Source of the DNA: Powellomyces hirtus
Taxonomy: Eukaryota > Chytridiomycota > Chytridiomycetes > Spizellomycetales > Powellomycetaceae
Reading direction: 5' to 3'
Assembly: GCA_025526995.1 (NCBI GenBank)
Contig: JAHLKG010000011.1
Coordinates: 682,001 to 746,000, forward strand
Length of the DNA: 64,000 bases
Within the stretch, counting starts at the first letter, position 1, and each line of letters opens with the position of its first letter. The position numbers and the translations under genes are program-made. Below, in pieces: positions 2,666 through 64,000 of this stretch. Below the pieces are notes generated by a model. It was not told the DNA's origin and did not search any database. It saw only the letters and a list, made by a program, of their open reading frames with translations.

Positions 2666-4588
2666 ATGTCCTTACTAGTAGCCTGCGCACTGCGGAGGCC
2701 AATACCCTACACTAGGGCAGTGCGCAACCTCTGGACCACGGCAACCTCATCCTCTTCCTCCCTCGACAAGGCGCTGAACGCCTGCACAGCCGCACTCCAC
2801 AAATCCAAACAATCTCCACGCAAACAGTCACAACTCTGTGTCGTTCTCGCTTCGGCTCACTATCCAGCCGCGTCTCTCGAACATCTTGGTCGCGCCGTGT
2901 CTGATCAATTCGCTCCCAAATGTCTAATCGGCGCGGTAGTGGACTCGGTCGCCGGCACGGAAGGAAGCAGTCTAGGACCTGGACTCAGCATCACCTTGAT
3001 GGATAATGATGCCAAAGCAGAGTGTGTTGGGTTCATGGTCAATAGCGATAATGTTCGGCATGTCAAGCAGAAGGCAGTTGGACGATGGCCGGATATGGGG
3101 CGAGGATTTGGGATCAAGGGACGCGACACGGATGCAGAAGCATTTGACCTTGAACGGTTCACGACCGTCTCGATGGGAGGCGGGAATGTAGAATTACCAG
3201 AAAAGCTGCAACGCATTCTTCCATCCAGGTAAGAGATACGCGCTGTGTGTCGGCCCAGCATTGTCATCAGACCTAAACTGGATCGACGCTTTTGCAGCGA
3301 GGAGACGGCGCTTCTTCTCACATTCTCCGATAAAGAGCCATATCAGTTCCTGGAAACTCTTGACCACTCATTCCCGAAGGCAACAAAGGTATGAGCTCAC
3401 GTCCAGATATCATCCAGTGCCGCGCCCTGACTCCACACGCACGCAGATTGGACTGATGGGAACCATGACCCCCTTTGTCAATGGACGACCTCATACTCTT
3501 TATTACAACGACAAAGTCCTCTCTGGTGGTCTCGTCGGAGCTGCTTTCGTCTCCAAAACACTCAAGGCTTCGGAAAAAGTCAGTTTTGCGGGCTTGGAAG
3601 CATTAGGGGAGCCGCTCACCATCACAAGGTATGGCTGCTCACAGTTTCTGCATTAACAGGTATTTGTTGACGCGTGATTCGCGACATCTAGTTGCCGGGG
3701 CAATATCATTTTAAACATTGACGATACGAATGCCGCCAAAGAGCTGTTGGCCCGGATGAATAATCGCGAAATGACTGCAGGTATTGCGGCCGAACGGCAG
3801 CTGTACGTTAGAGTCAGCCGTGGCGAGGTGAGCGCCAACATTTTGAGTCATTGCGCATCCATTCCCGTCACTGACATGAGAAACTTGCTCAGACTTCCGC
3901 CGTGTATCGGCTAACTGGAGGAGACCCTTCAAAGGGGACCCTAGCCGTGGATACCATCAAAGATCTGGAGATTGGAATGCAAATACAAGTGTGTAACAGT
4001 CATATTTCATTCTGTCTCTACGTGGGCTAACTCGTAGTACAGTTCATGCAACACATGGGCGCGAAAGCATCTACCAACACGATGCAGGGTATGCCTTTTC
4101 ACTATCGGTTGGCCAGTTACAGCAGATTTTGATCACCTCTCCCGATAGGCAAAGCGCTTGTGTTCACGTGCACGGACCCTGACATGCCAACCCAGGCGTC
4201 AACAGATTCGCAGACTCCCTCAGCACATATCAGCAGCACATTATCAGCCGCGAGCGAAGGTGGATTCTTTTCCGGTCATGCCATGGACCAGACCGGCGCT
4301 CTCAATGCGCTCACTGGTAGCCTTCCATGTGATGTACCCTACTCTCGAGTAGCAGTGACCTTCAAAGAATCGAACCGTCAGGCACCGCGTAGCGCCCGCC
4401 ACTTTTCCACCTGGTCACCATCCCATGCACTTAAGACCAATCTTCCCAACCCACCAGCCATCCCCAAACCAACAGCACCTGTCAATCCCCTGACTGCGGG
4501 ACGAGACGGGGAGGACTCGCTTTCGACCTCGGTGGCTTTCATATATGAGGATGCCGATAGTCTTGGCAAACTACCGTGGGTGGAGTGA
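2666..4588 (+). CDS. FIST-domain (FIST_N + FIST_C) protein
   Basis: 517 residues; exons 2666-3228, 3298-3388, 3447-3628, 3692-3827, 3893-3988, 4043-4088 and 4149-4588. Residues 1-30 are basic and hydroxylated (ALRRPIPYTRAVRNLWTTAT), like a mitochondrial presequence. FIST_N follows: CLIGAVVDSVAG, LLLTFSDKEPYQFL, GLMGTMTPF and SGGLVGAAFV. FIST_C has GNIILNIDDTNAAKELL, then GKALVFTCTD and a late GGFFSGHAMDQTGAL. FIST is a small-ligand sensory domain in bacterial signalling proteins and occurs in eukaryotes in FBXO22; no F-box is seen here. The stop lies only 31 bp before the MRS2 start, and a 70-nt intron (4576-4645) would fuse both frames (see findings). The ligand is unknown. Confidence 0.78.
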
Positions 4589-4619
4589 TGGCAATACATT
4601 TCTTTGCCACGATGATCTG

Positions 4620-6179
4620 ATGCGTGTCCCCAACTCATTCTCCAGTGACCCGGCTTTGAGTCTTCCAGGGACAAAGAAGGTGCGCCATCTGGCTGGTGGT
4701 GCATATATATACATGTATATTTTCAATAACCATTAGTGTGTTTCCAGACTCTCAAACTCCGTGCTCTTGTAAGTGAGGCGTCCTGTATCTTGATGATTCA
4801 AATGCCGTCCTCACTTCGTGATACAGATCTATGATGGAGAGGGAATCCTGCAGGAACCTGTGGAAGGGGAATTTTCAAAGATTGGCATTTGTAAGGCACA
4901 CAGCCTGCAACCCCGAGACTTGAGAAAGGTAACTTCCGCATTTCTGCGATCTACAGGACTAGGTACAGCAGCACGCTCATAACCACAATTGCGATCCACA
5001 GATGGACAACACCTACTCGGAACAAACACCCATTATCCTTGTTCGTGAGAAAGCTATCCTAATAAACCTCTTGCAATTCAAAGTCTTAGTCAAAGGTATA
5101 TACATGCTCATGACCGAGTATCATTGCAATTTTGCTGAACGCGTGGATGCAGCGGATATGACTATTCTGGCATCAAAGATGGGATCCGATCCTTACTCGC
5201 CCGCCTTTGTGCAAGAGCTGGGCGGAAAGCTCAAGATGAAGGAGGGTCACTATGAATTCCGGTATGCACAGTTTCATCTTTCCAACGACAACATTAGCTT
5301 GAACTGAGCGGACCTCTAGGGCTCTTGAAACGGTGTTTCTCAACGTCATTGCGCAGCTGCATGCCGAACAGCAGGCCATCTTTCTTCGCGTAAATGGTAC
5401 ACTGAAGACATTGGACGACCGCATTGAGGAGGCGGAGCTCAAAGGGTTATTGATAAGCAGAAGAAAGCTGGATGAGTTTGCTGTCAAAGTTAACTCTATA
5501 CGCGCTTGCTTCACGGCGATACTTAATCAGTGAGCAGTCTTCAGTACTGTCTGTACCTACTGGTTTCGAAGATTGACAGCGTTTGGTTTCTCAATAGGGA
5601 CGACGACCTGGCAGCCATGTACTTGACTGACAAAGCTCGAGGGCGACCGCGCGCTATTTCTGACCACATGGAAGCCGAGCTTCTTTTTGAGCATTATCTG
5701 AATCTTTCTGACGGTCAGGCCCCTCTTGCGTGAGGTCTTACACCGAAATGCGACTGATGACTTGGACGTTAACAGAAGTTGCTAATGCCACAACGCAACT
5801 CTCCAGCAACATTGCTGCTACTCAAGGTGTGTCTCTGTCCATTCGCTAACTTGATCATATCATGTCGACCCACCTCCTCTCCCCGTCATCGTCAGACATC
5901 ATCAACATTGTCCTCGGCTCTCGCCGCAATCAACTGATCCATTACGAGCTCATGGCCAACCTCTCCATGGCGGCCATCGCGCCCGCCGCGCTCATGGCCG
6001 GTCTCTTTGGCATGAACATTGCCAACGGCCTCGAACAAGACATGCATCTGTTTTGGGGCATCTTTGGTGGAACGTTTGTCGTTACTGGGACAGTCTGGTT
6101 TGCGTCGGTGAAGAAAATGTGGACCATGGCCCTGGCGGGTGGGTATCGTCGCCAAGCGCCTGTAAAGGGAAGTAAATGA
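4620..6179 (+). CDS. MRS2: MRS2/CorA-type magnesium channel
   Basis: 348 residues if it starts at 4620; exons 4620-4679, 4748-4768, 4827-4928, 5002-5095, 5153-5261, 5320-5529, 5598-5713, 5776-5826 and 5896-6179. Landmarks of mitochondrial MRS2 are clear: SLQPRDLRK, PIILVREKAILINLLQFK, DDDLAAMYLTDKA, DIINIVLGSRRNQLI, and two C-terminal membrane spans with the pore signature GMN (AGLFGMNIAN, about residue 292). It forms a pentameric Mg2+ channel of the inner mitochondrial membrane. It is about 100 residues shorter than yeast or human MRS2 because no presequence is encoded. Together with the 31-bp spacing, this suggests the upstream FIST exons supply the N-terminus. Confidence 0.88.
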
Positions 6180-6492: not shown

Positions 6493-7216
6493 CTACTGCT
6501 CGTCCTGATCATCGCTGCTTTCCTCCTCACCATCATCTCCAAAATCATCGTCAAAGTCACTCCATCCCCCATCCTCCTTCTCTGCCGCCGCCGTGGCCAG
6601 CTTCTCGGCGCCCTCGTCATCTCCGCGGTCCATTTTTCGCAGATATGATCTCCGTTGTCGTTCCGACATGGATGCTAGTACCGCTGCTTGCTCCTGCTGT
6701 TCCTTCAGACGCTGCGCGGGGGTCTTGACGTCCGAGCTGTTTTGTTTTGGGGTTCAAAAAGTTAGCTGCGTGATGCTTATGATGAAGGCGAGTTATGTTG
6801 TGGGCACGTACATGACGATATCGGTACTCTCTTGGCACTTCGCGCACACGTTCCGCTCCCCAGCACACCCTTTACATAACACGTGGTACGCATCGGTGAT
6901 TTTCTTGCCCTTGCAAACAAGACATGTTTTGGGTTGTGACAGCGGCTTGTACTTGTTCATTCGCTTCCTGTGGTCACAAAACGCAATGTGTCAACGTTGG
7001 TCAAGATTTTTCCTCTGGGTTTCGGGGTCAGCTGTCCACGAACCTCCAGTCGATGATATCCAAACATCTTTGACACAGGCCTTGCGCAGGCAAGTTGACA
7101 ATCCTGACAGCGGCGGTGTTGTTCTTATTGGGTTTGAACGCAAAAGTGTTTTGGTACTTTTGTCGAGACTTTGTCGCGCCGGTTTTTCCTTTTGCTGTTG
7201 AGACTTTTCCGGCCAT
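6493..7216 (-). CDS. C9orf85-like zinc-ribbon protein
   Basis: 190 residues; exons 7044-7216, 6812-6967 and 6493-6736. The N-terminus has QKYQNTFAFKPNK, then GLCQRCLDIIDW, KYKPLSQPKTCLVCKGK, DAYHVLCKGCAGERNVCAKC. The spacing matches human C9orf85 and its relatives, which carry conserved CxxC pairs that probably bind zinc. A basic stretch (SERQRRSYLRKMDRGD) and a very acidic Asp/Glu tail (SDFDDDFGDDGEEESSDDQD) follow. The molecular function of the family is unknown. The gene is divergent from eIF2B gamma, whose start is 298 bp away. Confidence 0.82.
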
Positions 7217-7514
7217 TTCGAAAATTTCTACAGCTGATTGATGATGATCGCTTTAAAAGTTCAAGAAGAGGTAGTCGTGGAGGTGCTGTAAGTTCACTTT
7301 CGGGGTCGGGTTGTTAATTGTCAAAAAGAAAAAGTAAAGAACAACAGGAAACGCATGTGGATTCTGAGAATTCTCGTAAGCGATCGAGAGTATGCCGTAA
7401 GCACACAAGCCACACTTCTTGCATGACTCATGTCACACTCTGCCAAAAGGCTTCCCAACCCATTTTTGACTTTGGGCATTTGAACTTTCTCCACCAACGT
7501 ATAATAACAAAAGA

Positions 7515-63231: not shown

Positions 63232-64000
63232 TCATTCGTTATCGGAGAAGACTGGCCGCCGTTTCGCTTGCCGAATTCGCTTTCGCAAGGTGGCCTCAAC
63301 GTCGCTGTCGTCGTCACTTTCACCGTCTTCGTCAATGTCGGTTCTATGCCGTTTGCGGCTTGCTGTAGGTGAACTGACATCATCGTCACTGGTTGCAATG
63401 CTGGATGTCCTGTGATGTGAAGACGCCCTCGGTGGTGTGGAGTCTACTTCATCCTCCTCCTCGTCAACAACATCGTCAGGCCAAGGAGAGGTTACAGACG
63501 GACGGCCCTCGTCATCGCTTGTTCCCGCGCTTCGGCTCCTGCCAGTATCGTCGTCACTGGTTGCAACACTGGATGTCCTGTGATGTGGAGACACCCACGG
63601 TTCTACTTCATCCTTCTCCTCGTCAACACTATCGTCAGGCCAAGGAGAGGTTACAGATGGACTGCGCTCGTCATCGCTTGTTCCCGCGCTTCGGTTCCTG
63701 AGAGTGATTGGTCGCCTAGGCAATGGCGAGTCATATCCGTCTTCAAACAAAGGAGCGGGATGTTCGTGGCTTTCTGATGAACTGCTATCGTCATCGCTCG
63801 TCATGTCGATTCGGTTCCTTCGAGTGGCTGGCCGTCTTGGTGGGGACGAGTCTTCATCTTCATGCCAAGTAGCGGACTGTCTTTCGGTTTCCGATGGATA
63901 GCTTTCGTCGTCGCTCGTCAAGGCGTTTCGGCTCCTGCGAGTAGATCGTCTCGGTGGTGGTGAATCCAGGTTTGTAGCTGTCTCCTCGTCCTCCTCGCTT
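63232..64000 (-). CDS. acidic Ser/Asp-rich repeat protein, partial
   Basis: The frame is open from the window edge (64000) to a stop at 63232, about 255 visible residues; the N-terminus lies outside. It is almost wholly disordered, with tandem units of the form PPRRxTRRxRxxxTSDDxS, followed by TSPWPDDSVDEEKDEVE-like acidic stretches and HHRTSSxATSDDD. It ends with a basic segment RKRIRQAKRRPVFSDNE. Many SDD/SDE sites look like casein-kinase-2 targets. Probably nuclear by composition; no domain recognised. The intron state is unknown beyond the window. Confidence 0.6.
   Translation of the reverse strand, partial: SEEDEETATNLDSPPPRRSTRRSRNALTSDDESYPSETERQSATWHEDEDSSPPRRPATRRNRIDMTSDDDSSSSESHEHPAPLFEDGYDSPLPRRPITLRNRSAGTSDDERSPSVTSPWPDDSVDEEKDEVEPWVSPHHRTSSVATSDDDTGRSRSAGTSDDEGRPSVTSPWPDDVVDEEEDEVDSTPPRASSHHRTSSIATSDDDVSSPTASRKRHRTDIDEDGESDDDSDVEATLRKRIRQAKRRPVFSDNE
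63405..63960 (-). repeat. coding tandem repeats in acidic protein
   Basis: Degenerate DNA repeats of roughly 130-150 bp (for example 63529-63610 versus 63395-63420, and 63480-63535 versus 63640-63695) encode repeated SPWPDDxVDEExDEV and RSAGTSDDE blocks. Confidence 0.7.

Follow-up and report, generated by a model that had tools for sequence, protein, structure and literature searches.

The window analyzed here is a 64,000-nucleotide stretch of the Powellomyces hirtus genome, in which a gene with a FIST reading frame and six introns is followed, on the forward strand, by a gene with an MRS2 reading frame and eight, together occupying positions 2666-6179 (Table 1). The initial annotation had proposed that the two are one gene, and most of the geometry that it described was recovered: the FIST-frame TGA (4586-4588) and the ATG at 4620 lie 31 bp apart, the MRS2 frame runs for 20 residues (MRVPNSFSSDPALSLPGTKK) from that ATG to its conserved core, and excision of a 70-nt intron from GTGGGT (4576) to TTCTCCAG (4645) joins the two frames into 853 residues with no internal stop. 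Position 4620 is indeed the first ATG after the FIST stop, but it is less secure as the start of MRS2 because other starts are possible, the frame being open as far upstream as 4494, with 4545 as the start of a public model. In Pfam searches, the joined protein matched FIST at residues 56-290 (PF08495, 4.9e-13, 49.8 bits against a cut-off of 23.2), the MRS2-like domain at residues 531-770 (PF22099, 1.5e-67, 227.8 bits, cut-off 27), and CorA at residues 633-828 (PF01544, 4.6e-9, 36.4 bits, cut-off 27). A FIST C-terminal Pfam domain was found neither in this protein at E up to 1 nor in any of 31 relatives at E up to 0.01, and NCBIfam gave no match for the three proteins tried. The MRS2 module has the fold of Mrs2, two membrane helices at the C-terminus included, and the joined frame contains both a GMN selectivity motif (LFGMNIANG) and an RDLR motif (QPRDLRKMD), named as MRS2/CorA motifs in the portion of PMC11919701 available to us. 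The calculated mass is about 92 kDa for the whole precursor and about 46 and 44 kDa for the FIST and MRS2 parts.

Table 1. Features of the FIST-MRS2 locus, in window coordinates
Feature	Position	Strand	Details
FIST module, residues 1-446	2666..4372	+	introns 3229-3297, 3389-3446, 3629-3691, 3828-3892, 3989-4042, 4089-4148
Presequence-like N-terminus	2666..2728	+	first 21 residues with 4 K/R and 0 D/E; precedes conserved LWTTAT; targeting putative
Linker, residues 447-514	4373..4575	+	end of exon 7; open frame continuous with FIST C-terminus
RHFST, candidate internal MPP-type cleavage motif, residues 455-459	4397..4411	+	R-x-[FYL]-[AS]-[ST] occurs nowhere else in the protein
Seam segment, residues 496-514, LSTSVAFIYEDADSLGKLP	4520..4575	+	15/19 identical to each of three Geranomyces proteins
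Joining intron, 70 nt	4576..4645	+	spans both the ATG at 4620 and the "FIST stop" (4586-4588)
MRS2 module, stop codon included	4646..6179	+	introns 4680-4747, 4769-4826, 4929-5001, 5096-5152, 5262-5319, 5530-5597, 5714-5775, 5827-5895

The joining intron agrees in size with its neighbors, as had been claimed for it, the gene model's remaining 14 introns measuring 54-73 nt. When splice sites were scored with models trained on those 14 introns and compared with their leave-one-out ranges, the acceptor came out strong (5.64, within -3.49 to 6.39), whereas the donor is weak: its score of 1.08 falls under all 14 leave-one-out donors (1.26-10.21) and is the lowest of the 15 introns. Among nine GT-AG pairs that join the frames openly (donors 4440-4675, length 45-160), 4576-4645 has the top score; the eight alternative joins near the seam also leave open frames, but all of them score lower and were rejected. 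Retention of the intron would bring an in-frame stop after WVE, making a FIST-only product of 517 residues possible.

A whole-protein search (7999 scored candidates, E up to 0.001, query words from the first 500 residues) identified at least seven relatives among the matches listed, three of them fused proteins and four FIST-only. The fused proteins, two from Geranomyces variabilis (P0001, 897 aa; P0003, 860 aa) and one from G. michiganensis (P0002, 938 aa), each carry FIST, MRS2-like and CorA domains, and all three are named "magnesium ion transporter" in the public record. Whether relatives always keep the two parts separate had been posed as a check on the fusion, and they do not: these proteins combine the same three domains at the same seam, running through AFIYEDADxLGKLP-DPxLS (the hyphen marks the seam). 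Identity of the P. hirtus protein to P0001, P0002 and P0003, respectively, is 65, 65 and 67% in the FIST part, 29, 41 and 52% in linker residues 447-495 (P0003 with 28 gaps), 79% each (15/19) on the exon-7 side at residues 496-514, 83% each (10/12) past the join at residues 515-526, and 75, 75 and 74% in the MRS2 part. On either side of the proposed splice, conservation at the seam thus matches or exceeds that of the domains, and the shared fusion and seam confirm, at the level of predicted protein sequence, that the join is more than chance. We also searched the organism's own genome (29.3 Mb, 60 contigs), where the MRS2-like model, the MRS2 protein and the FIST protein matched this locus only (3, 6 and 6 exon matches, respectively), copy numbers that rest on exon-wise matches and scored candidates only, as the six-frame search takes one exon at a time; the FIST Pfam model gave 0 matches there, although the FIST protein query finds the gene. 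With these relatives, the conserved seam and no other copies in the genome searches, a single FIST-MRS2 gene is well supported, and the locus almost certainly comprises 16 exons encoding one 853-residue precursor.

In the public P. hirtus annotation, the locus is represented by two models, both on a contig of 1,003,318 bases. P0061 (DFJ77DRAFT_431584, 373 residues) aligns with the FIST part over 360 positions, 356 of them matching and four of them gaps, and ends inside intron 3989, short of the seam (window 2666-4035). P0010 (DFJ77DRAFT_55854, 224 residues) lies letter for letter within the spliced MRS2 frame from nucleotide 4545, reads through the joining intron, and ends at read-through of intron 5530, leaving it without the GMN motif and membrane helices (window 4545-5532). 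This pair of models is what speaks for two neighboring genes, with the Geranomyces fusions as gene-prediction mergers, but the end of FIST and the conserved seam share a single open exon 7, a start at either 4620 or 4545 has no clear presequence (2 R and 1 D in the first 21 residues from 4545), the seam is conserved between genera, and the genome searches found no second MRS2 locus. On the strength of the seam, the single open exon and the one MRS2 locus found, a merged annotation of two genes was rejected, and we regard separate genes as very improbable. The read-through in P0010 speaks only weakly against the join, as the same model fails elsewhere too, at intron 5530. It also bears on a splicing switch, in which the weak donor would keep the 70-nt intron in some transcripts, the retained form giving FIST only and the spliced form FIST-MRS2: the lowest-scoring donor of the gene, the in-frame stop upon retention and the P0010 read-through all agree with such a switch, but P0010, truncated by an unspliced intron, is a poor witness, and we consider the switch unlikely. 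Public gene models can conceal a FIST-MRS2 architecture by splitting and truncating the gene.

Outside the genera with the fusion, FIST and MRS2 are separate proteins in three outgroups, encoded, assuming that both proteins of each outgroup come from one assembly, on contigs of 1,117,792 and 559,607 bases in Fimicolochytrium, 1,960,441 and 1,210,509 bases in Gaertneriomyces, and 926,056 and 1,759,703 bases in Phlyctochytrium (FIST and MRS2, respectively). Fimicolochytrium, Thoreauomyces, Geranomyces and Powellomyces belong to one family. The state of Thoreauomyces bears on the timing of the fusion; it has a FIST-only model with a late start (P0062, 420 aa), and none of the 53 MRS2 matches with an E-value of 1e-20 or lower is a Thoreauomyces protein. 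In the FIST tree, the branching of Powellomyces, Thoreauomyces and Geranomyces is not separated, and the fused label needs two changes (one change in 11% of 200 bootstrap trees), so this tree neither establishes nor rules out a single origin of the fusion; in the MRS2 tree, the fused sequences cluster with weak support (74/61). Upon inspection of the seam itself, we found that SVAFIYED, just before the splice, resembles SAAFAYED at the N-terminus of the stand-alone Fimicolochytrium MRS2 (P0009), the distance to PGTKK being similar. The alignment of the exon-7 end with the P0009 N-terminus is colinear with a score of 42, reached by 17 of 2000 shuffles, and a profile of the seam segment ranked P0009 first of 53, with an E-value of only 0.011; the linker showed no significant similarity to the N-termini of the stand-alone MRS2 proteins P0008, P0011 and P0014 (scores reached by 1912, 1037 and 298 of 2000 shuffles). 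Judging from this one outgroup, exon 7, which encodes the end of FIST, appears also to have kept, in that frame, a portion of the former MRS2 N-terminus.

The linker contains a further shared feature. The pattern R-x-[FYL]-[AS]-[ST] is typical of MPP sites, and it occurs once each in the P. hirtus protein, P0001 and P0002, always in the linker, where RHFST is aligned with RQYAT (P0001) and RHYAT (P0002) each within a stretch free of acidic residues (45, 44 and 53 residues long, respectively). Shuffled linkers contain the motif in 2.5, 4.1 and 5.8% of cases, the three linkers being related and not independent. The motif is absent from P0003, whose model has a gap at that linker stretch; P0001 and P0003 are both from G. 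variabilis, and the missing stretch may reflect other splicing or a prediction error. A comparable excision of the motif within exon 7 of P. hirtus was considered and rejected: among 33 in-frame pairs, the best (7.46) would remove 216 nt, outside the local 54-73 nt, and the donor homologous to the P0003 gap scores just 0.87. In the predicted structure of P0001, both modules are folded as expected and pLDDT is under 50 at residues 466-544, in the linker region. For the FIST-only proteins of other fungi, 9 of 11 have more K/R than D/E before an [LI]W-like motif (8 versus 6 in P0065), and the other two are P0007, which starts at that motif, and P0062, which lacks it; these net basic starts would fit mitochondrial import.

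The reading that we favor is a composite precursor that is cut. A FIST gene with a presequence-like N-terminus would have been joined in frame upstream of the single MRS2 gene; the N-terminal presequence would lead the precursor into mitochondria, MRS2 would assemble as an inner-membrane pentamer whose N-terminal domains face the matrix, and the linker may retain the former MRS2 presequence cleavage site around R-H-F-S-T. If MPP cuts at the linker, much as it cuts yeast Arg5,6 in two, equal amounts of a FIST protein in the matrix and of a normal MRS2 channel could result, the MRS2 N-terminus lying near residue 457; we judge this internal cleavage evenly poised. To our knowledge, no composite precursor with MRS2 has been described. 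Against this reading stand the weak donor, the read-through in P0010, the missing linker stretch of P0003, the rate of the motif in shuffled linkers, the three dissimilar stand-alone MRS2 N-termini, the FIST-only Thoreauomyces model and the two label changes in the FIST tree. The accessible part of PMC11919701 places the Mrs2 N-terminal domain on the matrix side, and a FIST part in front of that domain would then be located there as well, which we consider likely. As precedents, the available portions of PMC8847149, PMC11342911 and PMC12585908 describe yeast Arg5,6 as cut internally by MPP into two enzymes and ACAD10 as cut at MPP consensus sites. Like the composite mitochondrial precursors Arg5,6, ACAD10 (for which internal cleavage is reported) and Atp25, as far as the same portions describe them, the P. 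hirtus protein has two modules, a presequence-like N-terminus and R-x-[FY]-[AS]-T in a linker disordered by prediction; it differs from them in that one half is a membrane channel and in that the cleavage is putative.

Because of the MPP-like linker motif and the Arg5,6 and ACAD10 precedents, we prefer the cut precursor over a permanently joined protein, which we hold to be less probable although a real contender. In the latter case, a pentamer would carry five matrix FIST domains beside the Mg2+-sensing N-terminal domain, sensing or docking a partner to tune Mg2+ uptake. That every Mg2+ channel subunit permanently tethers a FIST sensor or docking domain is a tentative proposal, somewhat doubtful as it stands; if correct, it would mean a matrix-side regulation of MRS2 without a described counterpart among the CorA/MRS2 channels known to us. 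We also know of no ligand for the FIST family concerned, three of the four fused proteins have the cleavage-like motif, and the linker is disordered by prediction (P0001) and poorly conserved outside the seam, all of which argue against lasting attachment; in its favor are the fused reading frame and seam, P0003 without the motif, and a geometry that fits the matrix position given for the Mrs2 N-terminal domain in the accessible part of PMC11919701. Regarding the initial interpretation as one ligand-responsive channel gene, the single FIST-MRS2 gene is upheld by the relatives, the seam and the genome searches, whereas the ligand-responsive channel stays a conjecture: in the structure of FBXO22, the FIST domain is described in the available portion of PMC11185555 as having no obvious ligand pocket and as binding a protein, and with the MPP-like motif in the linker, FIST and MRS2 may not stay joined.

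By sequence, the MRS2 module matches CtMrs2 (8q8p) at 6.8e-52; it differs from known members of this mitochondrial branch of CorA Mg2+ channels, such as CtMrs2 (8q8p), yeast 3rkg and human 8ip3, by the FIST module and linker in front. By our own mapping, the CtMrs2 gate residue Met417 is aligned here with Ile (window 5937-5939); the same mapping places Leu or Ile at this position in Geranomyces, Fimicolochytrium and Spizellomyces. Small-ligand binding has been proposed for the FIST family. Compared with other FIST proteins (the fungal FIST-only proteins and human FBXO22, 8s7d and 8ua3), the module here is joined to a channel, follows a presequence-like N-terminus, and shows no F-box at E up to 1. 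Fold comparison alone linked it to known structures, with residues 31-463 of P0001 matching FBXO22; a PDB sequence search with the FIST alignment (A3) found nothing at E up to 0.1. Our literature search returned no description of a FIST-MRS2 architecture, nothing with FIST, Mrs2 and CorA together or with Mrs2 and chytrid, and papers on "FIST domain" and "magnesium" that, by their titles and the beginnings of their abstracts, concern other subjects. The architecture is therefore present in public Geranomyces records, with no description found. No function was found for the FIST-only fungal proteins. Gene fusion hints at two proteins working together, and fusion with the only MRS2 found in the genome links this FIST-only protein family to matrix Mg2+. 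The two outcomes weighed here are a FIST domain built into the channel and a composite precursor of which a membrane channel forms one half.

Elsewhere in the genome, further CorA-type matches lie on contigs 4 and 16 (L002 and L001, respectively), without an MRS2-like match. In the rest of the window, a DUF1775 match (1.4e-24) was located at 1380-1925 on the minus strand, in a frame whose C-terminus is hydrophobic, and DUF2039 matches fall in two open stretches, probably exons, at 6793-7252 on the minus strand. A tandem repeat at 63379-63700 consists of two copies of a 159-base unit with 86% matches.
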